From Lutraria lutraria (Eukaryota > Mollusca > Bivalvia > Venerida > Mactridae), in the NCBI GenBank assembly GCA_964023205.1, contig OZ026841.1:29340399-29404398 (forward strand): DNA of 64,000 bases, given 5' to 3'. Positions within the stretch are counted from its first letter, which is position 1. Each line of letters starts with the position of its first letter. Positions 19,549 to 64,000 of the stretch are shown here, piece after piece. The translations under genes and the position numbers were made by a program. The notes under the pieces are model-generated. The model ran no database searches. It saw only the letters and a list, made by a program, of their open reading frames with translations, and was not told where the DNA came from.

Positions 19549-20627
19549 ATGCCTCGTATGTCGATTCAAGATAGGGCCAGAGCTGTGGGTCTAGTTCAGG
19601 GAGGGGCATCGCATTCTCAGGTACGTAAAATAATTGTGCATAATTTGATCCCCTTTTTAATAAAAACGACTGATACTGTGTGCTATACGAACGTTGATGT
19701 TCCTTATTAATCATCCCATCGTTGTTTTCAGGTCGCAAGAATAATGAACGTACAAAAACTATCTATCACCAGCCTGATGGCCAAATTCAGGCGAACCGGA
19801 AGTGTGGACGACCTCCGTAGGCAGCCCCGCCAGAAAGTCACAACTGCGAGACAAGACAGATTTATTGTTCTAAGTCATCTCCGCAACCGGAGACGCACTA
19901 CAGATGAAACAGCACAAGCCATCGTTGGACTTCACGGTCGTCCAATAAGTGCAGAAATCGTCCGTAAACGTTTACGTAGACCATTTCGTGGACTGTCACT
20001 AACCATTCGTCATCGTAGAGCACGTCTACATCTTAGATTTACAAGGGCTAATTGGGCGGTTGTGCTTTTTTTCAGATGAGAAGCGTTTCAAGCTGTATAA
20101 TAATGACGGCCGTACACGTGTCTATAGACGTATTGGAGAAAGGTACACCGATGCATGCGTCATGGAAACAAACTGAATATTTTGGCGGGGGCTCAGTGAT
20201 GATATGGGCAGGAATTTCACTGCATACCAAGACACCTGCTATCATTGTGAATGGTAACTTGACAGCTGTCAGATATCAAAATGAGATTCTACGTCCGGTT
20301 GTGATTCCGCTAATTCAGCAAAACCGTAACATGAAGCTGATGCAAGACGGTGCCACTGCCCATACTGCACGATCTACCATGAACCTCCTTCGGAACAACA
20401 GCATTAACGTACTGGAATGGCCATCAAAGTCTCCAGACCTGAATCCAATTGAGCATGTGTGGGCTGGACGTGTTAGGAAAGTCTATCGAAACCGACCTCA
20501 AAATCTTCAGCAGCTGCGTCTTCAAATTGTCGCAGAATGGAATAGACTTCCTCAAGCGTACTTTAGGAACTTTATTTTGTCGATGAGACAGCAATGTCAG
20601 GCGGTAGCGCGGGCAAATGGAGGATAA
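19549..20627 (+). pseudogene. Tc1-family transposase, intron-bearing, frameshifted
   Basis: DDE transposase that would cut and paste the enclosing element. Start ATG 19549 (MPRMSIQDRARAVGLV). Exon 1 ends ...GASHSQ at 19620; a 111-bp GT...AG intron (19621-19731) follows; exon 2 resumes VARIMNVQK, restoring the N-terminal helix-turn-helix paired-like domain (ITSLMAKFRRTGSVDDLRR). Catalytic domain: the first Asp box (SDEKRF) lies at about 20072 in a shifted frame; then GGGSVMIWAGI, the second Asp in LMQDGATAHT, and Glu in SPDLNPIEHVW (DD34E-type). Two +1 shifts break the frame: one in a run of seven T near 20066-20072, one between about 20155 and 20180. Otherwise nearly full length, about 320 residues, so it was inactivated recently. 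Confidence 0.88.
19621..19731 (+). other. Putative 111-bp intron in Tc1 transposase
   Basis: Starts GTACGT and ends TTGTTTTCAG with a T-rich tract. It contains in-frame stops, and removing it joins ...SHSQ to VARIMN without changing frame, as expected from the family alignment. Confidence 0.75.
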
Positions 20628-26000: not shown

Positions 26001-29000
26001 GCTGTTGGGTTTATCTGCATTAAATATTTCTGAAAACACAAACGTTGGAAAATTAGTTCATTCACACTCGCATGTATACTCGACATAGATACAAAATATG
26101 ACATAGTTTAACGGCCAGTTCATTATTAATACTACGTTGCTGTAATGACCTCTTCTTTGCATGCTGGTTTCCATCTTAACTCTCTAAGTTTAAATTGATA
26201 TTTAAAGCAACCTATAGGAATTATTTATATTCATATACAAATATATTTGACTTCAGTAATTTAATGTGTTAGTTCCGGAAAGAAAATGGCAACCTTTCTT
26301 GTGATAAAGAATTCAGTCATTTGTTTCTGGCATTACCTTACAGTTCGTCGTAAAGAAGTTGCTTAGATCGATTAGTGTGAAGAAGTTGTCATTCTCTTTC
26401 GTACTTTGTGTTTAATTATATAACGGGGCTAAGATCAGCTGCCTGAATTTTATTAAATGGGTCGTGATTTACTGAATGTAAATATTTAGAGTATTCTGGA
26501 CAATTAAAATCTTTCTTGTGATTGAATTGAGTGAACAACCTATTATCACATCTTAAATATTCTCCACTGCTTATAAGTAATCGTAATCATTGTATAGGAT
26601 AGATCACGAGTAACTGCATGTAGTCTATGGGATTTAGAGGCGAGCGCAGACATATCTGACTTAGACCACATGTAATACTCAGTGGTTTTATAACGGCTAA
26701 CTGTGATCTACGTATTTTAGCCAACACATTTTCTGTGCTGTGATTGGTCAATTAGAGTCAACTGTAGTCTAAGTTGATATGTTGTCATATCAGGTTACAT
26801 TACTACATTGTCCCGAATTCTGCGACGGGGAGTCTGTCTATATTCATCTCTGACATATCAACAAACATATTATAATGTACTACAAAGTTCTGATCAAAGG
26901 TTACCATCATTTCCTTCAAGTCGTTGTGTTCTCTAGGCACTATAAATTCATCCATGTCTGCTACAGCCATATATTTGTACACTGAAGAACGTTGCAAGCA
27001 ATCAATCAATAGAACACGTTCGTCCTCCCAGTACGCCATGCGTTTTTCACCAATCATCCCTGTAATCAAGCAGAAATAGGCGAGTGAATGCACAATCTTA
27101 CCACATTTTGTATTTAAATTCAAGAAATCTCTGAAAGTGTCCGAACCTGATGCACCACAGGCAATTATTGCTAATTATTTGAGTAATCTTAATTCTCGGT
27201 ATTTGACCCTTGTGATTTCCACATACTTTTTGCAGCCGTCTAATCCTTTTGGACAATGCCTCATTGCACCCACTTTTATGTATATTGTTAGTGCGTTGGG
27301 AGATACTAGTAATTTTTTACTTCCCATAGGGTTGTATATTTGAGTGCCAAGTTGTTTAAGAACAAAGTTAAGTTAAAAGTCGCATCAGCCATGATCTTGG
27401 CACACATAATTGATAACGAAGGTGAAAGCTTATGGAAAGACAATGCTGAAAATAAAGTGATACTCACGTTTTGACTTCAGAGGGTAGTCATAAGGGTGTC
27501 GTTCCACAAGACCGAGTTGAACATAATAATTTATGATGGAATTTGTTGTGGTCGTTAAATTATAAGTAAACATGAAGATTTTATCCACTTTCATTTCCCG
27601 GTAAAATTCTATCCAATCAATGAACAGTTTGTTATCTACATTTCCATAAACAAGCTTTAAACATACAGCGAACGAATCTTCGTTGATAGTTTTCTTCGGT
27701 AGATATGGTTTTAGGTACATTTTGTCATTAGTTGAACATTTCGGCTTGATTGATTGTATGTCAACACCGACAATGTCCGAAAACCTATTGACAGGGCAAG
27801 CAAATTGAGAAGCAATTAGTCTTGACCTTCTATTGTATAACGAAATGGGATTGTGAAACTCCGATATTGTTTTATTTATCAATAGAAAACAACACTTTAA
27901 TCTTTTGGTCCTATGTTTACTGTCCAACCACCCAATGAGTTTTATGTCTCGTTGATAATTGACATACTGAGTTGTGTATGAACCAATGGCTGACAATATG
28001 TACAGTACAGGTGACTCGGCAGAATTCTCATCCCAATTATGACGGACATCCGCAGGAAATGTTGTTGTGGCCAACAGCTTATCAAGATGTTTGACCAATC
28101 TCCCAGTTTTGACTGCGGAAGTCTGAAAAAAAAATCAAAGGTACAACATAACTAATTTCCAAGTTCACTAAAATGGTTTGACATGAACAATTTTTTATAT
28201 TCCAGTTTTGACTACGGCAATCTGAAACATTTCACAAACACTCAAAAACTATTTCCAAGATAATCATATGTATGGTCAATAAGGATTCCTTACGAAGACC
28301 GCAGTTCTTTAGGCCCTTTGTTGAGTTACCGATGTAATTGTGAGACTCACAAATTTTTGATGATTGTCAAAATTCGGGAAACTTCAAAGTCACGCTCACG
28401 TTGCGACGTCACTACGGAGAACGTTGTTTTTCAAAAATAACAACGACTAAGCAAAATTGCAGAAATCATTCAGTTTTACTTTTGAGAGCCTTTTTACCAA
28501 ATTACCGTTGCGCAAACAATGCAACAAGGGTATCGTAAACATTGTATATTTTCCAAGCTTCAAATACTTAGGCTAGTTAATAGATTTAAATGACAAAATC
28601 AGTTTGTGACTGCAGATACAAAACAAGTGGAAAATGAAAGCATAGACTTAATGTCTATAAAAAAATAGACGCCATATCGTCATTAAAAATACTGTTTTTC
28701 GTGTGAAAAATTAAGATATAGACATGTAATTGTCTGTACGAAAAATGCATGTATCTACTTTAATTGTGTTTTTAAAATAACAAAATTGGCTAATACAATC
28801 AAAGGTTATAAGCTGTTGTAATTGTATCATATAATTATCATAAAACTCACTGTACCTAGTAAACGTTACTTAGTTTGAGGAATGTTTCAAATTGTTTGAA
28901 ATAACTTATTGAATGACAGTTACTGTATATATGTATAATCAAATTACTGAAAGTACTGTCGGAAGGTGCATTTCCCATACGAATAAAAAAAGAAAAATGT

Positions 29001-30483
29001 ACCCATATTATTCGTAATCTTGCAAATATTTTTAACATTTACACTAACGAATTGATATATGTATATATAATGCAGGGCATATATGTGTTTGACTCTGGAG
29101 AACTTTTGGCATACGATGGACGGTAATGCTACATTTATAAATGTTTCACGAGACGGTAATACTATTAGTATTAAACTTGATTCATTAAAACACACGTCAC
29201 GTGTCATCCATAGTTTTTATACAGGTCTACGCAATCACACAATTTGACTAATAAGAATTATATAAAACGGGTTTTTAAAATAAATGCACGTAAGTTGAAA
29301 ACAGATGACTCCCCCTTAAGAGTAATAATAGAAACACGTGCACATGGATGAATTTGTACACACTTATATGTACATGTATTTTGAGTCAATACACATATGA
29401 ATGACAATAAACAATATGCATTATATCAACATATATAACTAGTATCTATATAAACAGGTCTATAAACAGGGTTTTCATCTGATCCATAAAATGATATTTT
29501 CACCCTCGAAATAATCTGACTCGTCGGAATTTCTGTCAATGGGTCAAAATTATTTTAAGAAAAGTAGGAAATGGTTTTGACTCTTTACATCATAATGAGA
29601 AGCCTGTACACTGATTGTTGCACATAACGAACTGTTCCCTCTCAACAACTACTACCTCTCTACAACAACACATCACAGTGCTCGTCGCGGCAAAATGTTG
29701 CTCAACAGAGGGAACACTATAAACTTATATTACATGTGGAGAAACAATGTCAAATTGCTAGAAATATCCATACGCACTCGATTTCGTGATTTTTATACGT
29801 TTACAGACGTTATTTTTCAATTTCATCCTTCAAACAACGCAAATCTTTCGAAAGAATTTTTTTCCCTTTTTGAGTGTTCAAAAAAACACCAAGGTAGTGA
29901 ACTCGCCATTTTTTCGTTTGACGGAAGTGACAAAATGAGCGTTAATCCCGGCTTTCCTTCTAAAAGCTGTCAAAACGTTTAAAGTTGCGACACACTACAA
30001 CGAAACCAAGGTTCCCGGAAAGCACGTGCATACTAAAAGGAAAGCCGCCGGGACTCACGCTTATATTCGTCACTTCCGTCAATCGGAAAGATGGCGACTG
30101 CACTACCTTGGTGTTTTTAAACACTCAATAAAGGAAAAAAATTGAAGATTATTCTTTCGACAGATTTGCGTTGTTTGATGAGAGTGAAATTGAAAAATAG
30201 CGTCTGTAAACGTATAAAAATCACGGAATCGAGTGCCTATGGAAATATCTCATTGAATGATGATATACATGTAGAACTTTATCGTTCTTTGCTTAAATGT
30301 CTAAAATGGCAACATATATTTAATTCAACATTAAACATTGCGTTTATGCTTGATAAGATGATATTCTATCGCACTTACCGTTTGGACATTGTTAAGTAGC
30401 TTTATCCATGATATAATCAGGATACAACAAACTGTTATAAGAATATATAAAACGTGCTTCTTACCACACCCAGTGTGCTCCAT
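23087..30483 (-). CDS. Glycosyltransferase family 92 protein, gene 1 (complete, 5 exons)
   Basis: Type II membrane glycosyltransferase of family 92 (DUF23/Glyco_transf_92), predicted to add a sugar (galactose in characterised relatives) to N-glycan cores in the Golgi. Coding exons on the minus strand: 30483-30379, 28122-27468, 27059-26905, 26029-25788 and 23240-23087, all with GT/AG borders and compatible phases. They sum to 1311 nt, 436 residues plus TAA. Exon 1 encodes a short basic cytoplasmic tail and a membrane anchor (VLYILITVCCILIISWI). Exon 2 has the family signature FAVCLKLVYGNVDNKLFIDW. Exon 3 carries the metal-binding DxD-type motif in YMAVADMDEFIVPR. Exons 4-5 carry the conserved C-terminal parts, including LPSRITIRGITTH and PSVASLNHYRVCY. 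An acceptor just 5' of the ATG (exon edge about 30496) implies an upstream non-coding exon. Intron 1 holds a MITE. Confidence 0.9.
28123..29759. other. GT92 gene 1 intron 1, 3' part: non-coding
   Basis: AT-rich intronic DNA. It has a TACTGAAAGTACTGTCGGA word (28945) that recurs near 47607, probably from a dispersed repeat. No gene seen. Confidence 0.4.
29760..30250. mobile_element. About 490-bp fold-back MITE in GT92 intron
   Basis: Inverted arms of about 210 bp (29760-29970 and 30036-30250) share, for example, GTGATTTTTATACGTTTACA, AACACCAAGGTAGTG and GACGGAAGTGAC in opposite orientation. The central 65 bp contains AAGGTTCCCGGAAAGCACGTG. A truncated copy with the same centre lies at 45955-46235. 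Confidence 0.85.
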
Positions 30484-38384: not shown

Positions 38385-39165
38385 GGTATCTTATGTGACA
38401 GTTGGTAGTTGGATAAAGAGTTTGGCTACTTGTACGGAGACAGTTAAAGATTCTGCAAAATCAGGACGACCGGTGACTGCAACAGGATTAACTAATGTCT
38501 CCAAAGCCAGGGAAATAACTGAACGGGATGGCAGATATACGATTCGCGATGTTGCCAAAGCTGTTGGCATTTCACTATCAACGGCAAAACAATTGCTCAA
38601 AAAAATTGCAAACATTAATACTTGTAATGCGACTTGGGTTCATTATATCAAGACAGTTAGGAAAACTGGAAACAATATATGGCTTATCAAACACAGCAAA
38701 CGGCCTGTAGTTGTCAAAAGGGCAATGGGCAAAGAAGGCCATCTATGCCATATTCTTCTCATGCGAAAGAATAGCCAAACAAATCTTTATGCCCAATGGC
38801 AAACGTGGCACAGGTTGGTATTTCCGTGATTTTGTACTTAGAAAGCTCAAAATATATTATCAAACCGACTTGCGGTTGACGACTTTCAATATGTTTGCCT
38901 ACTCCATGATAATGCTCCAGCACATTCATCTGGTATTGTAAACCAGTTTCTGAAGTCGAAGAAGGTAACCGTAAAAAAGTTTTTATCTGGTCGTCGATAT
39001 CACTCCAGACAAGCCATTGGCTCATCTGTCGGTGTTTTTGAGGTATATCTAAATCAGTCATTCGTGACGCATTTCAGAAATGTATTCCCGGGCTGAAGTT
39101 TTGTATTTCTAACCACGGGAAATACTTTGAGAGGATGGAAAGTTATTTTGACCATTAAAGTCGGT
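38385..39165 (+). pseudogene. Mariner-family transposase relic
   Basis: The N-terminal half has the mariner helix-turn-helix segment: VSKAREITERDGRYTIRDVA then KAVGISLSTAKQLLKK (about 38495-38605). Frameshifted fragments follow: FMPNGKRGTGWYF (38783), LHDNAPAHSSGIVNQFL (38904, second catalytic Asp), GRRYHSRQAIGSSVGVF (38990) and CISNHGKYFERMESYF (39103). The stretch between the NAPAH box and SGRRYHSR, which should hold PPYSPDLAPCD and the third catalytic Asp, is deleted. Inactive. Confidence 0.8.
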
Positions 39166-40732: not shown

Positions 40733-41895
40733 TTTTGGTGTAACTTTTCCTGCTTATTCAAATGGAAACGTAACACCAAAAGGGAGGTATAGTTTCTCTT
40801 CAAATGGTGTAACTTTTCCTCGTAAAGTTGGAGGAAACCTAACACGAGACGGTAACATTTCCCTCGAAGGATATGTTCTCAGAGACACTTTGGTGTAACC
40901 TTTCCCATGAAGGAAAGGTTTCCAGAGAACCTTTGGTGTAACCTTTCCCATGAAGGAAAGGTTTCCAGAGATACTTTGGTGTAACCTTTCCCATGAAGGA
41001 AAGGTTTCCAGAGAACCTTTGGTGTAACCTTTCCCATGAAGGAAAGGTTTCCAGAGACCTTTTGGTGTAACCTTTCCCATGAAGGAAAGGTTTCCAGAGA
41101 TACTTTGGTGTAACCTTTCCCATGAAGGAAAGGTTTCCAGAGAACCTTTGGTGTAACCTTTCCCATGAAGGAAAGGTTTCCAGAGACCTTTTGGTGTAAC
41201 CTTTCCCATGAAGGAAAGGTTTCCAGAGATACTTTGGTGTAACCTTTCCCATGAAGAAAAGGTTTCCAGAGAACCTTTGGTGTAACCTTTCCCATGAAGG
41301 AAAGGTTTCCAGAGAACCTTTGGTGTAACCTTTCCCATGAAGGAAAGGTTTCCAGAGAACCTTTGGTGTAACCTTTCCCATGAAGGAAAGGTTTCCAGAG
41401 ATATTTTGGTGTAACCTTTCCCATGAAGGAAAGGTTTCCAGAGATATTTTGGTGTAACCTTTCCCATGAAGGAAAGGCCCGGTTTCCAGAGATATTTTGG
41501 TGTAACCCTAGGAAGGAAATCTTTCCAGAAACACTTTGGTGTAACCACGTTAGGAAGGAGATGTTTCCACAGACACCTTGGTGTAACCACGTTAGGAAGG
41601 AGATGTTTCCACAGACACCTTGGTGTAACCACGTTAGGAAGGAGATGTTTCCACAGACACCTTGGTGTAACCACGTTAGGAAGGAGATGTTTCCACAGAC
41701 ACCTTGGTGTAACCACGTTAGGAAGGAGATGTTTCCACAGACACCATGGTGTAACCACGTTAGGAAGGAGATGTTTCCACAGACACCTTGGTGTAACCAC
41801 GTTAGGAAGGAGATGTTTCCACAGACACCTTGGTGTAACCTTCCCCACGATGAAATTGTTCTCAAAATGTAACAACTGGTGTAACTTTCCCAAGT
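40733..41895. repeat. 43-bp / 42-bp composite minisatellite
   Basis: About 14 units of 43 bp (about 40890-41490) have the core TTTCCAGAGA-nnnn-TTTGGTGTAACC then TTTCCCATGAAGGAAA. They are followed by about eight units of 42 bp (about 41520-41850) with TTTCCACAGACACCTTGG then TGTAACCACGTTAGGAAGGAG. Both share TTCCA(G/C)AGA...TTGGTGTAAC, so they derive from one ancestor; decayed units flank them on both sides. Within the 43-bp part a variable tetranucleotide cycles GATAC-GAACC-GACCT, a three-unit higher-order period. Long frames of up to 379 codons on both strands are by-products of stop-free units and are not called as genes. Confidence 0.95.
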
Positions 41896-42640
41896 AAGAT
41901 GATTATGTTGGAAAACCATTAACCAATTTTTATAATATGGATTCTAACATTCTATCCAGTTGCATAATATTTGGTTAAAATACAAACTAGATGAATACAA
42001 ATTTGTAAATATAAACAAGATTAACTACTCTGAAGTGAAACTAGAGTAAAGACAAAACAATACTTTTTCAACAAATCACTTGAATAAGTATTTCGTTACA
42101 TCCCTTTGAAAAAAAATAAAACTAGAACTTAAGAATGACTATGTTACACATATATCAACAACATAATGAGATCTGATTTGTCCATGAAGATCCCTATCAT
42201 AAAAAATGTGAGCTATAAGCAATTACAAATAAGAGCTAGATGTATAAGGGGCTGGAGCCATTGGTGAACACAATGACAAGTTGGCTGATTATGGTAACAT
42301 TTGGCTTCTATTTTGATAAAAAAAATAGGTGAGGAAAATTGTACACATAAACTTATTTTAATTTGATATTTTCACAAGTTTTCATTTCTAAACATTGCAT
42401 ATGTGATTTAGATCAAATGTTCTGAGCATTAATTTAGTGTATTGTTTTTGCAAGGGATACTCGAGCTGTACAGAAGAAACAATGTGTTAAGAAATATTGC
42501 ACTGAAATATCACCGAATGCTTTCTAGTAAAAGAATGATCATTTTTCAGAGGTGTCTGAATATTAATATGAAATTTATAATTATTGCTACTCTTAAATCT
42601 TTTTGTGAAAATTTGCTAGAACAATAACAAATATACAAGC
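41896..42640. other. Non-coding spacer
   Basis: AT-rich, nothing recognised. The 5' edge of the LINE below is not defined. Confidence 0.35.
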
Positions 42641-56600: not shown

Positions 56601-58871
56601 TATGTAAGCAAGCGTTTAAAGATATCTAAGTTGACTTATTGCATAAATCACATTTGTCATTAACTAAAAATACTATTTAGATTTAAAATACACAAATCAA
56701 TACTGAAAGCAGACATTAAACGAAGTTACATATGTTCAGATACTTATTCATAGTATCAACAAGATATTTCGCCATTAATTTATCAAAGGACTAGAACAAA
56801 GGGAGGTAATTTCGTTACATTATTAACGGACCTGTGATGGTAATATTGTAATGCATTCTACATTTATGAAACACCATAGTTTAACTTAGAATTACCTTAA
56901 CTAAGCAAAATTGTTCACAGAATTTGACTCCATTTAAATGATATACATGCATTTGTTTGACAATTTCGTTTCATGAAGGCGGTGCATTTTATCCAGAACG
57001 AAGAGAGAGTAATATATCAGTTGAGCGGTTTTCAGTTTCGTAAATTTACATATTCAATTATGGTAATTTTGGATTTAAATAATCATAATTATGTCATTTA
57101 AAATTTATTACAATTTTACAATTAGAGATCCGTCACTAATGTCGTTGGAACGCATTAGTAAATATTTTAGTAATCTCAGTTATTTAATTGCATGTATTCA
57201 TAATTTACCCACGAGCCTTTCACACACCTTTTTAGCCGTCTAATCTATTGCTAAGTGCCCCATTGTACCCATTTCTAGGTATATTGTAAGTACGTTGGAG
57301 GACAACTTTCATAAGGTGTTTGACTATTGAATACTATACATGTTGTTTTAGTATTAAGGGTTTTGTCAGAAATCGCATTAGCCAAGATATTGACTGAAAA
57401 GGCTGCGAGCTAAGAAGAAAGTTTATTGAAAGACAAAGACAATGCTGAAGATAAAGTGATACTCACGTGTTGACTTCAGAGGGTAGTCATAAGGATGTCT
57501 CTCCACAAGACCGAGTTGAACATAATGATTTATGATGAAATTTGTTGTAGTTGTTAAATTATAAGTAAACATGAAGATTTTATCCACTTTCATCTCCCGG
57601 TAAAATTCTATCCAATCAATGAACAGTTTGTTATCTACATTTCCATAAACAAGTTTTAAACATACAGCGAACGAATCTTCATTGACAGTTTTCATCGGTA
57701 CATATGGTTTCATGTACATTTTGTCGTTAGTTGAACATTTCGATTCGGCTGATTGTATGTCAACACCGACAATGTCCGAAAACCTATTGACGGGGCACGC
57801 AGTTTGAGACGCAATTAGTTTTGACCTTTTAGTATAAGTCAAAATAGGATCGTAAAACTCCGATATTGTCTTATTAATCAATAGAAAACAGCATTTTAAT
57901 CTTTTGTCCTTATGTTTGCTGTCCAACCACCCAGTGAGTTTTATGTCTAGTTGATAATTGACATACTGAGTTGTGTATGAACCAATGGCTGACAATATAT
58001 ACAGTGCAAGGGACTGGGTAGAATTCTCATCCCACTGATGACGGATATCCGCAGGAAATGTTGTTGTGGCCAACTGCTGATCAAGATGTTTGACCAATCT
58101 CCCAGTTTTGACTGCGGAAGTCTGAAAAAATCAAAGGTACAACAAAATACATCTAATTTCCAAGTTCACTGAACATGGCTTGACATGAACAATTTTTTCA
58201 AATGAAGTTATCACAGATTGTTTAATAAACAAATAAGTTGTTCATAATCCCTCAAAGTTGTCTTCCTTGGACTGAATGGCAGAATTCTATCTCTTTGACA
58301 ATGCTTTGAACTTCGTTGATCCCTTGAACGTCCCCGTTAATAGCACACGCTAGTTTATCCAAACTGTCATAGCGTATTTTCCGTAGTTGCACCTTCAGTG
58401 TTCTGGGACACATGTTCCTCATTAGCCTCTTCGTGACGTTGATGCCGATTTTGTAAAGTTAGTTCGGTTTCACTAATGCAAATAGAACCTAAACGTTCAA
58501 TGTTTCCATTTTATAAATGTTTCTCTAAATGTTTGTCAGTTAGGTTAGTTAAAGAAATACATTTTATTGAATTATGTAAGCCCGAATTAAATGCTAATAA
58601 GCGTTACAATTACTCCTTCTAAAAACTTCAAAATATGTGCAAGAAGATGAACCAATAGCAAGGTCAACATTTTATCAATTTGCTGTACAGCCACTAGGCG
58701 AGGCATTGTAGTATCATTGCGTTTTCGATTTTTAAGATAATAATTAATAACGATTTCTTACCAGGTAGCCCTTTTTTATTTGTCTGGTCATCATAATAGT
58801 CATGATACCACAAACTACAGTAAGAATCAGGAATAAGTGTTTCCTATGTGGTCCTGCGATGTCCTTTGTTA
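50613..58871 (-). CDS. Glycosyltransferase family 92 protein, gene 2 (5' end uncertain)
   Basis: Paralogue of gene 1 with identical exon plan and, for the last four, identical exon lengths: 58871-58762 (membrane-anchor exon, LFLILTVVCGIMTIMM), 58121-57467 (655 nt), 55605-55451 (155), 54704-54463 (242) and 50766-50613 (154). Signature parts are intact: FAVCLKLVYGNVDNKLFIDW, YMAVADMDEFIVPR, LPSRISIKGYTTH, ASMNHYRMCY, ending ...NRTWYPDD. All exons join in frame without stops. In the first exon the codon aligned with gene 1's ATG is ATC (58860-58858), so the start must come from an upstream exon not found here or from an internal ATG, or the gene has lost its start. The last intron contains a bivalve repeat array and a palindrome. 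Confidence 0.85.
51735..53145. mobile_element. Bivalve dispersed repeat carrying about 158-bp tandem array
   Basis: The left edge has AAGAGGGCCATGATGGCCCT then ATAAATGCTCACC; the right edge has CACCCTGAGCACATTCGTGC then TCTGGTGAGCTAAAA. Between them are six or seven units of 150-160 bp, each with CATAATTTGAACAAACTTGG, TAGAGGTCCACTAGACAATG, CTCTAGGCCTTG and GGTTTCGGAG. Two unit types alternate (AATAGAATAAACCCCAGG versus TATAAATCAAGTGACCCC), giving a period of about 315 bp. This resembles the tandem-repeat-bearing non-autonomous elements known from bivalves. It lies in the last intron of GT92 gene 2. Confidence 0.85.
53390..53531. repeat. 142-bp cruciform-forming palindrome
   Basis: Arms of about 63 bp starting AGAAACTCGGGTCACTGTCC pair almost perfectly around GGCGAGCTTTAGCGAG. 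The plan matches the 21149-21293 palindrome (long arms; CGAG...TTAG...CGAG centre), although the arm sequences differ. Confidence 0.9.
53876..53908. repeat. Small inverted repeat
   Basis: GACCTGAGAACA and TGTTCTCAGGTC are separated by five bases. It may be a relic of a palindromic element like its neighbour. Confidence 0.6.
55860..57466. other. GT92 gene 2 intron: non-coding
   Basis: AT-rich intronic DNA between the 155-nt and 655-nt exons. A diverged direct repeat, ACAGACCTGCGACCCGGTTC and ACAGAACTACGACCCAGTTC, lies near 56091 and 56158. No gene seen. Confidence 0.4.
58253..58454 (-). other. Unrecognised open segment in GT92 gene 2 intron 1
   Basis: A minus-strand frame of about 66 codons without ATG near its start (between in-frame stops) contains MRNMCPRTLKVQLRKIRYDS and DKLACAINGDVQGINEVQS, ending in TGA near 58255. 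Composition is coding-like, but no family is recognised and gene 1 has nothing similar in its intron. It could be an exon remnant from an inserted element. Confidence 0.3.
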
Positions 58872-59275
58872 CTGGAATAGAAAAACCGTGATTGTGACAA
58901 ACTGTTAACTCATGAAATATTTCATATATTTGTTAAAGGCGGATTAGATAAGATTGCCAGCGTCTACATCAAATAACATGTTTTGATACATTTCGATCTG
59001 AAGAAGTGCAAAGCAATCTTTTTTCAGCCTATGTTTACTAGTCTTTTAGTAATTATCCATTTAGTCGATTAGCAAAATGCAAATATTCTTATCGGTCTAA
59101 ATTTACTACTCAAAGTTGACTAATCATTACACAATGTAATACGTTTTTTATTCAATAGTACAGTAGCGGGTATATAGGGGTTATTAACTGCAATGTCAGT
59201 AAAATGTATACAGTAGTACATTCAAGTTTGCTTTCAACACAAAACCTCGTAGTTTTAAGGTTAGAATTGTCGAGA
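58872..59275. other. Non-coding spacer upstream of GT92 gene 2
   Basis: No start exon for GT92 gene 2 could be identified here. Confidence 0.35.
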
Positions 59276-59309
59276 GATGGCCTCGTCAGTAGTATAAGGC
59301 GTTACCCTG

Positions 59310-59465
59310 GCACCCTACCTCCTGGCACCATATAGAATATAGAGTAAAAAAAAAAGGTCGGTGCCAGAAGTAAACAAAATTGTGACAAATTGGGACAAAT
59401 TGGAATCCATATTGGGTGCTCAAAATAGTATGAATTGAATTTTCGGAAACTTCTGGCACTGTGTG
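59310..59465. repeat. TGGCACC/GGTGCCA repeat cluster at element edge
   Basis: CTGGCACCCTACCTCCTGGC carries two direct copies of CTGGCACC; then GGTGCCAGAAGT (59366) is inverted as ACTTCTGGCACTG (59449). This could be the terminal or subterminal repeat of the element to the right, or an independent hairpin. Confidence 0.4.
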
Positions 59466-59512
59466 TGTTTTGTTATTTGTACTGTATAGACTAAATATTC
59501 ATTTGAGACAAT

Positions 59513-59533
59513 GAGAGAATTTTCTTTCGAAAA
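59513..59533 (-). promoter_or_regulatory. Histone-downstream-element-like purine tract
   Basis: On the minus strand, about 9-15 nt after the distal hairpin, the sequence TCGAAAGAAAATTC occurs. It resembles the purine-rich U7 snRNA target (core AAAGA/GAAAGA) that follows the stem-loop in replication-dependent histone genes. Confidence 0.55.
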
Positions 59534-59541
59534 GACATGGT

Positions 59542-59579
59542 GGCCCTGAAAAGGGCCGTTGGTGGTCCTGAAAAGGACC
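59542..59579 (-). terminator. Tandem histone-type 3' stem-loops
   Basis: Two 16-nt hairpins on the minus strand: GGTCCTTTTCAGGACC (59579-59564) and GGCCCTTTTCAGGGCC (59557-59542). Each has a six-bp stem and TTTC loop, preceded by CCAAC and followed by ACCA. Both match the metazoan replication-dependent histone mRNA stem-loop consensus (GGYYCTTTTCAGRRCC) at every position. They begin 26 nt after the stop codon of the Pro/Gln/Met-rich gene, a usual histone distance. Confidence 0.85.
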
Positions 59580-59605
59580 GTTGGTTGTGGCTGTTAGTCG
59601 GATCT

Positions 59606-60364
59606 TCATTTCTTTATTTCTTTACCATACTTGCCCCGAGGTTGTTTCTCAAGGTCATGTTTTCGTTTCTTCGTTTCTGTCATCTCCGGTTTCTTTTTGT
59701 CATGCTCCGGTTTCTTTTTCTCATGCTCATGCTTTCGTTTCTTTGAATCATACATAAACTGTACAGGTACAATCATTTCTTGTGGTTTAAACCGTACTTC
59801 TTGATTCTTCATGAGTCTGACCATCTCTTGCATCACTTGATTCATTTGTACCATTTCTTCCCTGATACCTTGTAGAACAGACAATCCTGTTGTAGGCTTT
59901 GTAATTGTATTAGACTGTTTATCCGTCATAAGCTGTGTATTCGCCATAGGCTGTATAGGCTGTTTATCCGTCATAAGCTGTGTATTCGCCATAGGCTGTA
60001 TAGGCTGTGTATTCACCATAGGGGGTTGTGTATTCGTCATAGTGGGTTGTACATCTACCATAGGCTGTGTATTCGCCATAGGGGGTTGTATCGGCTGTAC
60101 ATCTACCATAGGCTGTACATCTACCATGGGTTGTATCGGCTGTACATCTACCATAGGCTGTACATCTACCATGGACTGTTGACTGTATTGGCTGTATAGT
60201 GGTTGACTGTATTGGCTGTACTGTGGCTGCCTATACTGTAGTTGACCGTACTTTGGCTGGTTGTACTTCGGCTGGTTGTAATGCATACCCGCATTCGGGT
60301 CTATCAACTCAGATGATTCTAGTGCTTCTCTCAATATATCGTATGGCATGTTGAAGGACTCCAT
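59606..60364 (-). CDS. Pro/Gln/Met-rich repeat protein with Lys-rich tail
   Basis: Unrecognised protein. An in-frame ATG at 60421 would give 271 residues, but a TATA box (60408-60401) lies inside that extension, so I choose the ATG at 60364 (MESFNMPYDILREALESSEL, 252 residues). The N-terminal 25 residues look folded. A Tyr/Gln region (YNQPKYGQLQYRQPQYSQYS) follows, then about 90 residues of imperfect QPMVDVQPIQP/ANTQP/TDKQP repeats, a short amphipathic helix (IREEMVQMNQVMQEMVRLMK) and a very basic C-terminus (KKRKHEHEKKKPEHDKKK). The layout suggests a structural or DNA-binding accessory protein; function unknown. The gene ends in tandem histone-type stem-loops. Confidence 0.75.
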   Translation of the reverse strand: MESFNMPYDILREALESSELIDPNAGMHYNQPKYNQPKYGQLQYRQPQYSQYSQPLYSQYSQQSMVDVQPMVDVQPIQPMVDVQPMVDVQPIQPPMANTQPMVDVQPTMTNTQPPMVNTQPIQPMANTQLMTDKQPIQPMANTQLMTDKQSNTITKPTTGLSVLQGIREEMVQMNQVMQEMVRLMKNQEVRFKPQEMIVPVQFMYDSKKRKHEHEKKKPEHDKKKPEMTETKKRKHDLEKQPRGKYGKEIKK

Positions 60365-60400
60365 GCTAGATAATGAAAAAATAGTGTCTGCGCCGGGGGT

Positions 60401-60408
60401 ATTTATAC
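60401..60408 (-). promoter_or_regulatory. TATA box of Pro/Gln-rich gene
   Basis: TATAAATA on the minus strand, 37-44 nt upstream of the chosen ATG, predicting a 5' UTR of only about 10-15 nt. Confidence 0.6.
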
Positions 60409-60429
60409 TTTTTGCCTGCACGCGCCAGT

Positions 60430-60565
60430 GTTCTATTAGGTCAAGGTCAATTGTGAGAAGTTTTTTTTGAATACGTGTGACACTTCAAGTTTTTTTTAAA
60501 AATAAGTGTGACACTTCAAGTTTTTTTTTTGAACAAGTGTTTGATACGTCAAGGTCAATTGTGAC
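60430..60565. repeat. GTGACACTTCAAG-T(n) repeats
   Basis: Three or four spaced copies of GTGACACTTCAAG, mostly followed by runs of seven to ten T, with TCAAGGTCAATTGTGA at both ends. It lies directly upstream of the Pro/Gln-rich gene. Confidence 0.7.
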
Positions 60566-60571
60566 ACTTCA

Positions 60572-60885
60572 AGGTTATATTGTACACATCATACAATCAC
60601 AGCACTTTGAATACATTTGTGGGAATACTTTGTACACATCATACAATCACAGCACTTTGAATACATTTGTGGGAATACTTTGTACACATCATACTATCAC
60701 AGCAATTTGAATACTGTACACATTATACTATCACAGCAATTTGAACACTGTACACATTATACTATCACAGCAATTTGAACACTGTACACATTATACTATC
60801 ACAGCAATTTGAATACTGTACACTTAATATATACTATCACGGCAATTTGAATACTGTACACATTATACAATCACAGCACTTTGAA
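60572..60885. repeat. 50-bp and 34-bp tandem repeats
   Basis: Units start TGTACACATCATACAATCAC or TGTACACATTATACTATCAC. Two or three long units of about 50 bp (with AATACATTTGTGGGAATACT) are followed by four or five 34-bp units ending CAGCAATTTGAACAC, then a return to the long form. Confidence 0.85.
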
Positions 60886-61033
60886 TACATTTGTTGAAAA
60901 TGATTGTACACATCATACTATCACTTATATTTGTAGGGAAAAATGTTATAATGTTTATAGAAAACTTACCTCACACCGTATATTTGTATTTGGTGTTATC
61001 AGATAGGACTGTAAATATTGACAATATGAGAGT

Positions 61034-61046
61034 GATTCTTTCTGAA
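61034..61046 (-). promoter_or_regulatory. Histone-downstream-element-like purine tract
   Basis: The minus strand reads TCAGAAAGAATCAC, starting about 10 nt beyond the distal hairpin; AGAAAGA matches the U7-binding core well. Confidence 0.6.
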
Positions 61047-61055
61047 TTGTATGGG

Positions 61056-61093
61056 GGCCCTGAAAAGGGCCGTTGGTGGTCCTGAAAAGGACC
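61056..61093 (-). terminator. Tandem histone-type 3' stem-loops
   Basis: GGTCCTTTTCAGGACC (61093-61078) and GGCCCTTTTCAGGGCC (61071-61056) on the minus strand, with the same order, spacing and flanks (CCAAC...ACCA between them) as at 59542-59579. The first hairpin starts 19 nt after the stop codon of the coiled-coil gene. Confidence 0.85.
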
Positions 61094-61112
61094 GTTGGTG
61101 CTTGTATGGGAA

Positions 61113-61436
61113 TTAATGGCGTTGACCGCATCTCCCCATACAAGCGGGACACCACTTGTCCCATTTCTTGACATCCTTCGGGTCCGGTGTAGGTTGATAG
61201 AGGTTCGACGGAACCTCTACCAGTTCATCTTCCCAGTTCTCTGGGGTTGATTCTTGGGGGGTATCCCCCCAGTCCTCTTCCCCAGAGCAGACCTCAACCT
61301 CCTCTACAAACTGCTTCCCCTCTCTCAGCTCTTTCACCTCCAGCCTTAACTCTTCTAGCTGCATCTCCAGCTGTTCAATATACCGCCCTAAGGCAGCATA
61401 TTTTCTCTTGATAATATTGACTGTTCTCTGTGACAT
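61113..61436 (-). CDS. Small coiled-coil protein with C-terminal CPAC motif
   Basis: 107 residues, ATG 61436, TAA 61113-61115. Residues 1-45 (NIIKRKYAALGRYIEQLEMQ...LEELRLEVKELREG) form a clear leucine-heptad coiled coil. The middle is acidic (about 46-78, GEEDWGDTPQESTPENWEDE). The C-terminus, KKWDKWCPACMGRCGQRH, has a Cys/His cluster that could bind a metal. Function unknown. The gene is divergent from the myristoylation-type gene and shares its CCAAT-array upstream region. It ends in tandem histone-type stem-loops. Confidence 0.75.
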   Translation of the reverse strand: MSQRTVNIIKRKYAALGRYIEQLEMQLEELRLEVKELREGKQFVEEVEVCSGEEDWGDTPQESTPENWEDELVEVPSNLYQPTPDPKDVKKWDKWCPACMGRCGQRH

Positions 61437-61499
61437 CTTGATACAGAATGAAACTAGATCAAGGCAAGGTCACTCACTGACTATGATACAAGGACTCTG

Positions 61500-61632
61500 A
61501 TTGGTCCATTTTAACGGTATTTCATTGGTCCATTTTAACGGTATTTCATTGGTCCATTTTAACGGTATTTCATTGGTCCATTTTAACGACATTTCATTGG
61601 TCCATTTTAACGACATTTCATTGGTCTGTTCT
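61500..61632. promoter_or_regulatory. Six-copy CCAAT array between divergent genes
   Basis: Five 24-bp units ATTGGTCCATTTTAACGGTA+TTTC (two with AACGACA) start at 61500, 61524, 61548, 61572 and 61596, with a partial sixth at 61620. Each carries an inverted CCAAT box (ATTGG) and a Myb-like AACGG. The array lies between the coiled-coil gene (minus) and the MGNCL gene (plus), so it probably works as a shared promoter or enhancer. Confidence 0.75.
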
Positions 61633-61686
61633 AGGTCAGTGTTTTTTTTTCGTGTTCCATAGCTCATTTATGTTTCATGATTCAAC

Positions 61687-61914
61687 ATGGGCAACTGCTT
61701 GAAAAGTTCTTCTGATGAACCTGATGAGTTACAAGAAGATGTTTGGGTGGTCAAGATGGGTAATTTGTACCCAGACTTGTCTGAATTCCAAGATGTTAGT
61801 ATTGTCAAGATGGATATCAAGATGGGTAATTTATACCCTGACCTTGCCATCTTTTATGATGAGGATTTGAGAGCCAACTATTGGCGATACCTATTTCTTG
61901 CAGAAATGCAATGA
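61687..61914 (+). CDS. Small protein with N-myristoylation/palmitoylation signal
   Basis: 75 residues, ATG 61687, TGA 61912-61914. The start MGNCLKSSS fits the N-myristoylation rule (Gly2, Ser6-like position) with an adjacent Cys for palmitoylation, which predicts anchoring to membranes. It is acidic, with an internal duplication (VVKMGNLYPDL and DIKMGNLYPDL). No known family. Such proteins often act at membranes during virion assembly or signalling, but that is inference. A histone-type hairpin follows 10 nt after the stop. Confidence 0.7.
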   Translation: MGNCLKSSSDEPDELQEDVWVVKMGNLYPDLSEFQDVSIVKMDIKMGNLYPDLAIFYDEDLRANYWRYLFLAEMQ

Positions 61915-61924
61915 ATTACCCAAC

Positions 61925-61940
61925 GGCCCTTATTAGGGCC
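61925..61940 (+). terminator. Histone-type stem-loop with variant loop
   Basis: GGCCCTTATTAGGGCC: the same six-bp stem and four-base loop geometry as the other hairpins, with CCAAC before and ACCA after, but loop TATT instead of TTTC. A CAAGCAAAGACAAAAG tract follows about 30 nt later and could serve as a downstream element. Confidence 0.65.
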
Positions 61941-62002
61941 ACCATATGTGTTAGATTCGTTTTGTTTCTCAAGCAAAGACAAAAGCATATTACATTGTCT
62001 AT

Positions 62003-62018
62003 CATTTTATTTTTGAAA
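62003..62018 (-). terminator. Poly(A) signal of the CCHC gene (probable)
   Basis: The minus strand has AAAAATAAAATGATAG (AATAAA), about 120 nt beyond the stop codon of the zinc-knuckle gene, which lacks a histone-type hairpin. Confidence 0.45.
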
Positions 62019-62084
62019 ACATTTATAAAGTACAACAAAGTACAACACAATACAACTCACTTAGTCTCCAATTTAAGTCTATAC

Positions 62085-62135
62085 ACAATTGTCCAACAAA
62101 TTGTCCAACAAATTGTCCAACACATTGTCCAGATT
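62085..62135. repeat. 13-bp tandem repeat ATTGTCCAACAAA
   Basis: Four copies with small changes in the 3' UTR of the CCHC gene. Confidence 0.8.
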
Positions 62136-62484
62136 ACACAAAGTCACTCACAGTTTTTGTTGGATTCTTTTTGTATTTACGTTTTTTCTTACTCTGTTCT
62201 GCGTCCTGTAGATCGACCTGTTCACCTTGTTTCTTAGGACAGTCTGCGATGAAATGTCCTTGTTCATGACAATAAAAGCATTCATTGTTGAAGGGTTCCG
62301 TACAGCTGGTAGAATAATGTCCTTTCTTTCCACAACGATAACACTTGATATGATCCCATGTTACATTTTTCTGTCCACAGAGCTGATCCGCTAAGTTGTT
62401 GAGCTCTTTAATTTTTTTCTTTAATGAATACATCAAAGTTTGATCTCGGTTCTCTTCAACTTGGTTCATTTTAGGATCGCTCAT
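62134..62484 (-). CDS. Double CCHC zinc-knuckle protein
   Basis: 116 residues, ATG 62484. The N-terminal half is a charged helix. Two retroviral-type zinc knuckles follow: CYRCGKKGHYSTSC and CFYCHEQGHFIADC, both with correct C-x2-C-x4-H-x4-C spacing. A lysine-rich tail (KKKRKYKKN) ends the protein. It is expected to bind single-stranded nucleic acid, like nucleocapsid or CNBP-type proteins. TATAAAAG lies at 62525-62518 and the polymerase gene is divergent from it. Zinc knuckles are not standard Polinton genes, so its presence is notable. Confidence 0.85.
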   Translation of the reverse strand: MSDPKMNQVEENRDQTLMYSLKKKIKELNNLADQLCGQKNVTWDHIKCYRCGKKGHYSTSCTEPFNNECFYCHEQGHFIADCPKKQGEQVDLQDAEQSKKKRKYKKNPTKTVSDFV

Positions 62485-62517
62485 GTTGAAATGATAAAAA
62501 ACGGACGGAGCGTACGT

Positions 62518-62525
62518 CTTTTATA
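62518..62525 (-). promoter_or_regulatory. TATA box of CCHC gene
   Basis: TATAAAAG on the minus strand, 34-41 nt upstream of the ATG. Confidence 0.65.
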
Positions 62526-62557
62526 GAGTGTCACGCGTTATGACCTTGAACCCGAAG

Positions 62558-62565
62558 TATAAAAA
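62558..62565 (+). promoter_or_regulatory. TATA box of DNA polymerase gene
   Basis: TATAAAAA, 29-36 nt upstream of the ATG at 62594. Initiation at the usual distance would leave almost no 5' UTR. It forms a 109-bp bidirectional promoter region with the CCHC gene. Confidence 0.6.
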
Positions 62566-62593
62566 ACGGCGGAGAAGTTTTAAGATCATAATC

Positions 62594-64000
62594 ATGTCAG
62601 ATACCGACAGTACTAGTGGTGAGGATGAACCTCCAACTAAACGAAGTAAGTTTGAGCCTGTGCGCGACTATTATAACATACAGTCACGCATGGAAAGAAA
62701 GTCAAGAAAATTCAAGACTCAATCCAAAGTATATGATGTGACATTTCAACCGTATAATCAATCGTTTGAATTTACAAACAGGTTGTTTAATGATATGATG
62801 GACCAACTCTACAAGAGATGTGAAGTAAAGTCGAATGATCGAGTTCGAGTATCTATTCTACATCCTGATTTGGACTTTGGAATACATGTTCCGTTTAATA
62901 GGGCATCTCGTATTAGTGGAGATACATTATTGGATGAAATTGAACGTGTGGCACAAAGTAACCGTCAATTTAAAATTCATGATGGGGCGGCACAGATGGA
63001 AATTACGCATATTGCTATGCCACAGGGATCCGGAAAGAAAACGTTTAAAGCACCAAACTTATTCAGTATGCGAAAGTCAAAGACAAGTGTTGTGTGTATT
63101 GACAATAGTAAGGACTCTATGTGTTTAGCTAGATCGATTGTGGTAGGACGGTGCAAAGTACATGAAAATCAAACCCCGGAATGGAAAAAACGATGGCATC
63201 TTATACGTCAGTCTAAGAAAAATCTTCAAAAATACGAAGCCGAAGCATTATTAAAGCAAGTGGGTATTTCATCGGATCAGTCGTGCGGTATAGAAGAATA
63301 CCAAAAACTACAGGACTATCTCTATCCGAGCTATGTGATTAAAATCCATCCACAACATTATGGAAGTGAATTGTTATTCAAACCACCTGCTCTGACTGAA
63401 AAAAGTCGTGTGATTCATATCTTTCACCATGATAATCATTATGACTGTATCGTATCCATTACCGGATTTCTCGGACGGGTTTATTATTGTGAATGGTGTG
63501 ATGTCGGTTATGATCACCGTGAAGGACACCAGTGTAGCCATATTTGTCAGTGTTATGCTCACACCCTGTGCCCAGCAGGACAATCTATAAGATGTCCGGA
63601 TTGCCGTCGCCTATTCCAGAGTCAGGCATGTTTTGACAATCATAAAACAAAAACGGGAAAACAACGTAAAACCATTTGTGAATCCGTATGGAATTGTAAG
63701 AAATGTGGACAAAAGGTGATTGAAACGAAACGGAATCACGTTTGCCCAGGGACAAAGAAATGCAGGTGTTGTAAAGCCATAGTAGGACCAGATCATGACT
63801 GTTACATTCCAACATATGAACCACCCAATAGAAAACAACCACCAGTACCATTCATCTTTTTTGATTTTGAATGTCGTTTTGATTCTGGAGAACATATCCC
63901 TAATTTTTGTGTGGCTCAACGTGCTTGTGGTGACTGTATGTGTCAGTCAGTGAAAGCTCCTTGTGAGTATTGTGAAGAGGTGAATGAAGCCAGACAAATG
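62594..64000 (+). CDS. Type B DNA polymerase, N-terminal part (runs off window)
   Basis: 469 codons open from ATG 62594 to the window edge. Replicative polymerase of the protein-primed/Polinton class (DNA_pol_B_2-like), which copies the element's own DNA. It starts with an acidic/basic tail containing PPTKRSKFEP (possible nuclear signal). A domain of unknown role follows (about 30-290). A Cys/His-rich zinc region comes next (about 297-412: YCEWCDVGYDHREGHQC, CPDCRRLF, CKKCGQKV, CRCCKAIV). Then the 3'-5' exonuclease motif I, FIFFDFEC (Asp424, Glu426), followed by HIPNFCVAQ as in Polinton relatives. Palm motifs would lie beyond 64000. No stops or frameshifts, so the element looks recent. Confidence 0.88.
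   Translation, partial: MSDTDSTSGEDEPPTKRSKFEPVRDYYNIQSRMERKSRKFKTQSKVYDVTFQPYNQSFEFTNRLFNDMMDQLYKRCEVKSNDRVRVSILHPDLDFGIHVPFNRASRISGDTLLDEIERVAQSNRQFKIHDGAAQMEITHIAMPQGSGKKTFKAPNLFSMRKSKTSVVCIDNSKDSMCLARSIVVGRCKVHENQTPEWKKRWHLIRQSKKNLQKYEAEALLKQVGISSDQSCGIEEYQKLQDYLYPSYVIKIHPQHYGSELLFKPPALTEKSRVIHIFHHDNHYDCIVSITGFLGRVYYCEWCDVGYDHREGHQCSHICQCYAHTLCPAGQSIRCPDCRRLFQSQACFDNHKTKTGKQRKTICESVWNCKKCGQKVIETKRNHVCPGTKKCRCCKAIVGPDHDCYIPTYEPPNRKQPPVPFIFFDFECRFDSGEHIPNFCVAQRACGDCMCQSVKAPCEYCEEVNEARQM

Follow-up and report, generated by a model that had tools for sequence, protein, structure and literature searches.

Histone-type 3' stem-loops at the ends of three non-histone genes beside a Polinton-like polymerase gene in a bivalve genome

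Three short genes lying next to a Polinton-like DNA polymerase gene in the bivalve Lutraria lutraria end in hairpins of the type that closes metazoan replication-dependent histone messages. All were found in a 64,000-nucleotide stretch of DNA, referred to here as the window (Table 1). An original prediction had described two of them, minus-strand genes of 252 and 107 residues (g252 and g107), as each ending in a tandem pair of such hairpins, and this description proved exact. A third gene (g75), absent from its list, ends likewise in such a hairpin, the fifth, which adds weight to the case for histone-type ends. These ends suggest that the element borrows the histone-message machinery of the cell, and we put at about 0.7 the probability that the host SLBP/U7 histone route processes the transcripts of all three genes to give non-polyadenylated, S-phase-biased mRNAs. 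As read from the letters, the finding itself is well-founded: an RNA signal already known turns up in a setting that is new. To our knowledge, animal genes other than those for histones hardly ever carry the histone 3' end.

Table 1. Features of the hairpin-gene block and its surroundings, with positions in the window.
Feature	Position	Strand	Evidence or remark
Candidate histone downstream element (U7 target) of g252, GAAAGA	59523..59528	-	13 nt past second hairpin
Second histone-type hairpin of g252 (GGCCCT TTTC AGGGCC)	59542..59557	-	RF00032 35.8 bits, above 34-bit cut-off
First histone-type hairpin of g252 (GGTCCT TTTC AGGACC)	59564..59579	-	RF00032 16.0 bits, E 2.8, below cut-off
g252, 252-aa ORF: Q/P-rich repeats, then Lys-rich C-terminus	59606..60364	-	ORF list
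TATA box of g252	60402..60407	-	Consensus match only; 43 nt upstream of ATG
Candidate histone downstream element of g107, GAAAGA	61037..61042	-	13 nt past second hairpin
Second histone-type hairpin of g107, 3' flank CCCCA	61056..61071	-	RF00032 31.7 bits, below cut-off
First histone-type hairpin of g107	61078..61093	-	RF00032 16.0 bits, E 2.8, below cut-off
g107, 107-aa ORF: predicted N-terminal helix (residues 3-40), acidic middle, C-terminal WCPACMGRC	61113..61436	-	
Six CCAAT boxes in 24-bp tandem repeat	61498..61627	-	Between divergent g107 (-) and g75 (+)
g75, 75-aa ORF: MGNCLKSS..., two YPDL repeats	61687..61914	+	
Single histone-type hairpin of g75 (GGCCCT TATT AGGGCC)	61925..61940	+	RF00032 31.0 bits, below cut-off
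Possible purine-rich downstream element of g75, CAAGCAAAGA	61970..61979	+	29 nt past hairpin; weak
AATAAA downstream of zk116	62006..62011	-	122 nt past zk116 stop
zk116, two CCHC zinc knuckles, ordinary poly(A) signal; contrast gene	62134..62484	-	PF00098 E 3.9e-08
PolB, N-terminal part with OTU-like domain (residues about 150-290), runs off window	62594..64000	+	Homologues, structure comparison

Every one of the five hairpins has six Watson-Crick pairs and a four-nucleotide loop and lies on the sense strand of its own gene, across three genes and both strands. All have a GG..CC stem base and U at positions 1 and 3 of the loop, the latter being a requirement of the histone stem-loop. The hairpins are found 26 and 48 nt past the stop codon in g252 and 19 and 41 nt past it in g107, in line with the spacing of about 20-45 nt that had been predicted, and the single hairpin of g75 follows its stop at 10 nt. 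CCAAC/ACC flanks are present on four of the five, including the g75 hairpin, which together with its CCAAC...ACCA flanks reads CCAACGGCCCTTATTAGGGCCACCA (61920-61944); the CCAAC/ACCA flanks claimed for the original four hairpins hold for three of them but not for the second hairpin of g107, where the 3' flank is CCCCA. Tandem hairpins are an unusual arrangement for histone genes. The two copies within a pair differ at the third stem pair by a paired change (T-A to C-G), and the TATT loop of g75 differs from the loops of the other four yet keeps both U1 and U3. The g75 site is palindromic; on the minus strand it falls about 190 nt past the zk116 stop with an AATA loop, which is missing the first U. 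As palindromes, some of which may be near the unmapped left end of the element, the hairpins might be thought to act at the level of DNA, in a replication origin or as packaging or integration sites. We consider this scarcely credible, since their orientation tracks the gene on both strands and their position tracks the stop codons, and since the loop and flanks of the sense strand fit the RNA consensus.

An Rfam scan of positions 57000-64000 at E<=5 matched the histone 3' stem-loop model RF00032 to all five hairpins, at 16.0 to 35.8 bits (Table 1). Three of them reach E<1e-5 and one passes the curated 34-bit cut-off, whereas in neither pair would the first hairpin stand out from chance on its own. 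A default Rfam scan of the whole window reports the best hairpin only. In pattern searches across the whole window, GGYCCTTTTCAGGRCC at <=3 mismatches has six matches (two of which are the single g75 site counted once per strand) where shuffles average 0.37, and the strict flanked pattern CCAANGGYYCTTHTHARRRCCACC, which omits the second hairpin of g107 because its 3' flank differs, has four matches against none in each of 100 shuffles. A looser scan of the window (GG start, six pairs with G-U allowed, T at loop positions 1 and 3) returned seven sites, namely the five gene-end hairpins and two others with five (30110-30125, plus strand) and three (60396-60411, plus strand) Watson-Crick pairs. 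RNA folding gave z-scores of -3.0, -4.2 and -1.4 for the three tails, the g75 tail (z -1.37) not being exceptional. The strict pattern was absent from IMG/VR viral contigs and from 257 Gb of prokaryotic contigs, and a second flanked form of the hairpin likewise had no match in IMG/VR viral contigs. A relaxed hairpin pattern was found in six viral contigs, three of which share one identical site. These six sites behave like chance matches: none has full stem pairing (3-4 of 6 pairs, G-U allowed) and each lies inside an open frame of 212-501 codons on one or other strand.

The predicted GAAAGA-like tract, expected 9-15 nt past each pair, was located as an exact GAAAGA 13 nt beyond the second hairpin in both g252 and g107. 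From the minus-strand frequency of GAAAGA in the window, the chance of finding it in a 12-nt interval is about 0.005, although the two occurrences are not independent because the tails are related. Indeed, a comparison of the two tails reveals that the double-hairpin block is identical at 44 of 44 positions and the 13-nt spacer at just 6, with GAAAGA retained beyond it. This pattern, in which the block is identical and the spacer diverged, fits selection on the signals, although recent duplication or local gene conversion could also explain the identity of the 44-nt block. The purine tract of g75 is both distant (29 nt) and imperfect. In the bivalve Lucina pectinata, purine-rich elements are described for some but not all of the histone genes (PMC6210712), so a weak tract in g75 is not out of the ordinary.

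No AATAAA or ATTAAA is present within 250 nt past the stop codons of g252, g107 and g75. More distant AATAAA signals lie about 450 nt past the g252 stop (59152, minus strand) and about 360 nt past that of g75 (62271, plus strand, inside zk116), and could serve genes whose real ends are polyadenylated further on and whose hairpins are unused relics, brought from a histone cluster at the time of gene capture. The one loop that is unlike the rest would also agree with such decay. We nevertheless regard it as quite improbable that the hairpins are relics: the stems are fully paired in all five cases, complete identity of the block stands beside a spacer that has diverged, the TATT loop retains U1 and U3 and is itself found in the published Lucina H4 primer, and none of the three proteins matches a histone family in Pfam.

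The Lucina primers offer a direct comparison with the histone genes of another bivalve. Table 1 of that study contains ten primers, three of which appear, on our reading of the primer letters, to be placed on the 3' palindrome (PMC6210712). When reversed, the primers for H2A and H3 finish with AACGGCCCTTTTT and the one for H4 with AACGGCCCTTATT (PMC6210712). The 5' arm AACGGCCCTT is common to these three primers and to hairpins of the element. By eye, the second hairpins of g252 and g107 share the 12-nt AACGGCCCTTTT with Lucina H2A and H3, and the g75 hairpin shares 13 nt (61922-61934) with the H4 primer, including the TATT loop. In both pairs, the first hairpin carries a GGTCC arm, which none of the primers in that table shows. 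An exact search of the window with the H2A and H3 primer ends, taken in sense orientation, returned just 9 nt at an unrelated place (58768); it failed at the hairpins because the loop has T in Lucina and C in the element. Overall, the gene ends resemble metazoan replication-dependent histone 3' ends in their 6-bp stem, 4-nt loop and closeness to the stop, in the flanks of four of the five hairpins, in the GAAAGA of two of the three genes, in the lack of a nearby poly(A) signal and in a 5' arm like that of the clam histone primers listed. They are unlike those of histone genes in that the proteins have no Pfam histone match, two of the three genes carry tandem pairs and a viral-type polymerase gene adjoins them.

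The proteins themselves are unfamiliar. None of g252, g107 and g75 matches a Pfam family above its cut-off or any histone family at E<=1, as had been expected from the description of the first two as non-histone genes; the sole Pfam match to g75 is PadR, at 19.3 bits against a cut-off of 27. Two of six candidate homologues of g107 were accepted, P0020 (91% identical over 100%) and P0021 (89% over 79%). In the structure model of g107, little is seen beyond the N-terminal helix (mean pLDDT 69). The g75 protein starts with MGNC and contains the unit KMGNLYPDL twice; we take the MGNC start and the YPxL units to resemble a myristoylation signal and late motifs, respectively. When codon usage was compared with that of PolB, the own frame scored highest for each ORF and the scores were negative for the three hairpin genes, which is weak support for coding.

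The polymerase is more readily placed. Adintoviruses and Polintons have been defined by a PolB with an N-terminal OTU-like domain (PMC11071296). The N-terminal fragment in the window carries such a domain, and of 1418 candidates compared with it, 18 are homologues at E<=1e-3. PF03175 is present in 10 of the 19 members of the resulting alignment and absent from the window's own fragment, the core of which lies beyond the window. The nearest viral structure models are those of mavirus, Adintovirus and MELD virus PolB, while the Foldseek comparison of the fragment with the PDB is weak when used alone. On this basis, we conclude that the polymerase is of the Polinton/adintovirus kind, and the Polinton-like character assigned to the element in the original prediction is supported by the OTU-like domain, the homologues and the structure comparison. 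The likeness to adintoviruses and Polintons (Mavericks) extends to this domain, whereas the rve integrase, Hexon (capsid) genes and terminal inverted repeats would lie beyond the window here. In IMG/VR viral contigs there was no confirmed relative of the PolB N-terminus, of P0008 or of alignment A3, and PolB had no match in phage records. The evidence on the element comes from a single copy, in a window that stops at 64000 inside PolB.

We infer from closeness and compact packing that g252, g107 and g75 belong to this element, whose termini are outside the window. The alternative is that they are host or formerly host S-phase genes beside it, their ends being an oddity of bivalve genes. That the element ends out of view would allow this, as would the lack of any g252 homologue at E<=1 among 325 candidates and the position of the g107 homologues on contigs of about 1 kb (982 and 1057 bp) with little context. 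However, the arrangement has a viral style of compactness: the convergent g75 and zk116 are 219 bp apart, and zk116 and polB diverge from a common promoter of 109 bp with a TATA box each way. The block also adjoins polB, and a duplicated segment to its left loses similarity at 58198, before the hairpin-gene block. We therefore think host origin unlikely. The segment in question, of about 1 kb, occurs twice (57218-58198 and 27217-28196) at 84% identity; each copy contains part of a similar ORF, with a match to PF01697 (glycosyltransferase family 92) at 57423-58097, and comparison of the two copies yielded no empty site. An inverted repeat at 59345-59475 (ACTTCTGGCAC / GTGCCAGAAGT), with more GTGCCAG copies nearby, may belong to the element at its left end. 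Elsewhere in the window, a repetitive region at 40754-41919 has long overlapping ORFs on both strands and is probably minisatellite rather than genes, and ORFs at 20052-20627 and 38395-38829 resemble, by eye, remnants of mariner/Tc1-type transposases.

TATA boxes stand about 36-43 nt upstream of the ATG in g252, zk116 and polB. The region between the divergent g107 and g75 holds instead an array of CCAAT boxes, six of them in 250 bp, a length that contains 0.58 on average across the window. Such boxes are common in the promoters of histone and other S-phase genes, so the array is suggestive only. Minisatellite-like arrays with units of 31, 50 and 34 bp occupy 60461-60888, flanked by the tail of g107 and the promoter of g252.

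Hairpins at the ends of viral genes have precedents of another kind. In Mimivirus, a hairpin rule applies in which transcript ends are marked by a hairpin, cut within it and polyadenylated by viral enzymes (PMC4402537). Hairpin-based 3' ends are also described for large DNA viruses and the virophage Sputnik, with A/T-rich stems of 10-15 bp or more (PMC8557863). The present element is like Mimivirus in carrying hairpins at gene ends, and a rule of its own might operate here, an RNase III-like element enzyme cutting before polyadenylation with neither SLBP nor U7. The hairpins are shorter (6 bp), G+C-rich and of histone type in loop and flanks, however, and the visible part of the element contains no RNase III or other such enzymes, while zk116 has an AATAAA instead. 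We hold an element-specific rule of this sort to be very improbable.

A second precedent concerns the histone signal itself. In a study of cryptophyte Polinton-like viruses (PLVs), an Rfam scan of 8,300 PLV and virophage genomes at the curated cut-off listed six histone 3'UTR stem-loops, none from cryptophyte PLVs, and the non-coding RNA section of that report names no host, position, gene or function for any of the six (PMC12220804). The signal is thus not wholly unrecorded in such elements. The word 'stem-loop' does not occur in the available text of two adintovirus papers (PMC11071296 and PMC8363768), and our search of the open-licence literature found no description of a histone signal at the ends of the genes of such an element.

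SLBP, U7 snRNP and CPSF73 act in the 3'-end processing of histone mRNA. By analogy, the pre-mRNAs of g252, g107 and g75 would each fold a hairpin just past the stop codon, to be bound by host SLBP. U7 snRNP would pair with the purine tract, which follows the hairpin after about 13 nt, a step for which the candidate site is clear in g252 and g107 and doubtful in g75, and CPSF73 would then cut between hairpin and purine tract. The products would be short, intronless, non-polyadenylated mRNAs, stable and translated mainly during DNA and histone synthesis. Beside the polymerase, zk116 would end by ordinary polyadenylation, which would leave the element with mRNAs of two classes. We infer the cleavage, the use of these factors, the timing and the benefit, and likewise that the three genes belong to the element.

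A fuller version of this idea, to which we give somewhat less than even odds, is that an animal Polinton or adintovirus runs a two-class programme. The replication class would combine TATA boxes with poly(A) signals, and the second class would have captured histone hairpins, two of its genes using the shared CCAAT-array promoter and one a TATA promoter. Accessory or virion proteins might then be made only in cells that are replicating their DNA, or in SLBP-rich oocytes and cleaving embryos. If these genes do undergo histone-type processing, this would be a novel means by which a mobile element links its expression to cellular DNA synthesis, and would provide a natural test of what is sufficient for SLBP/U7 processing.
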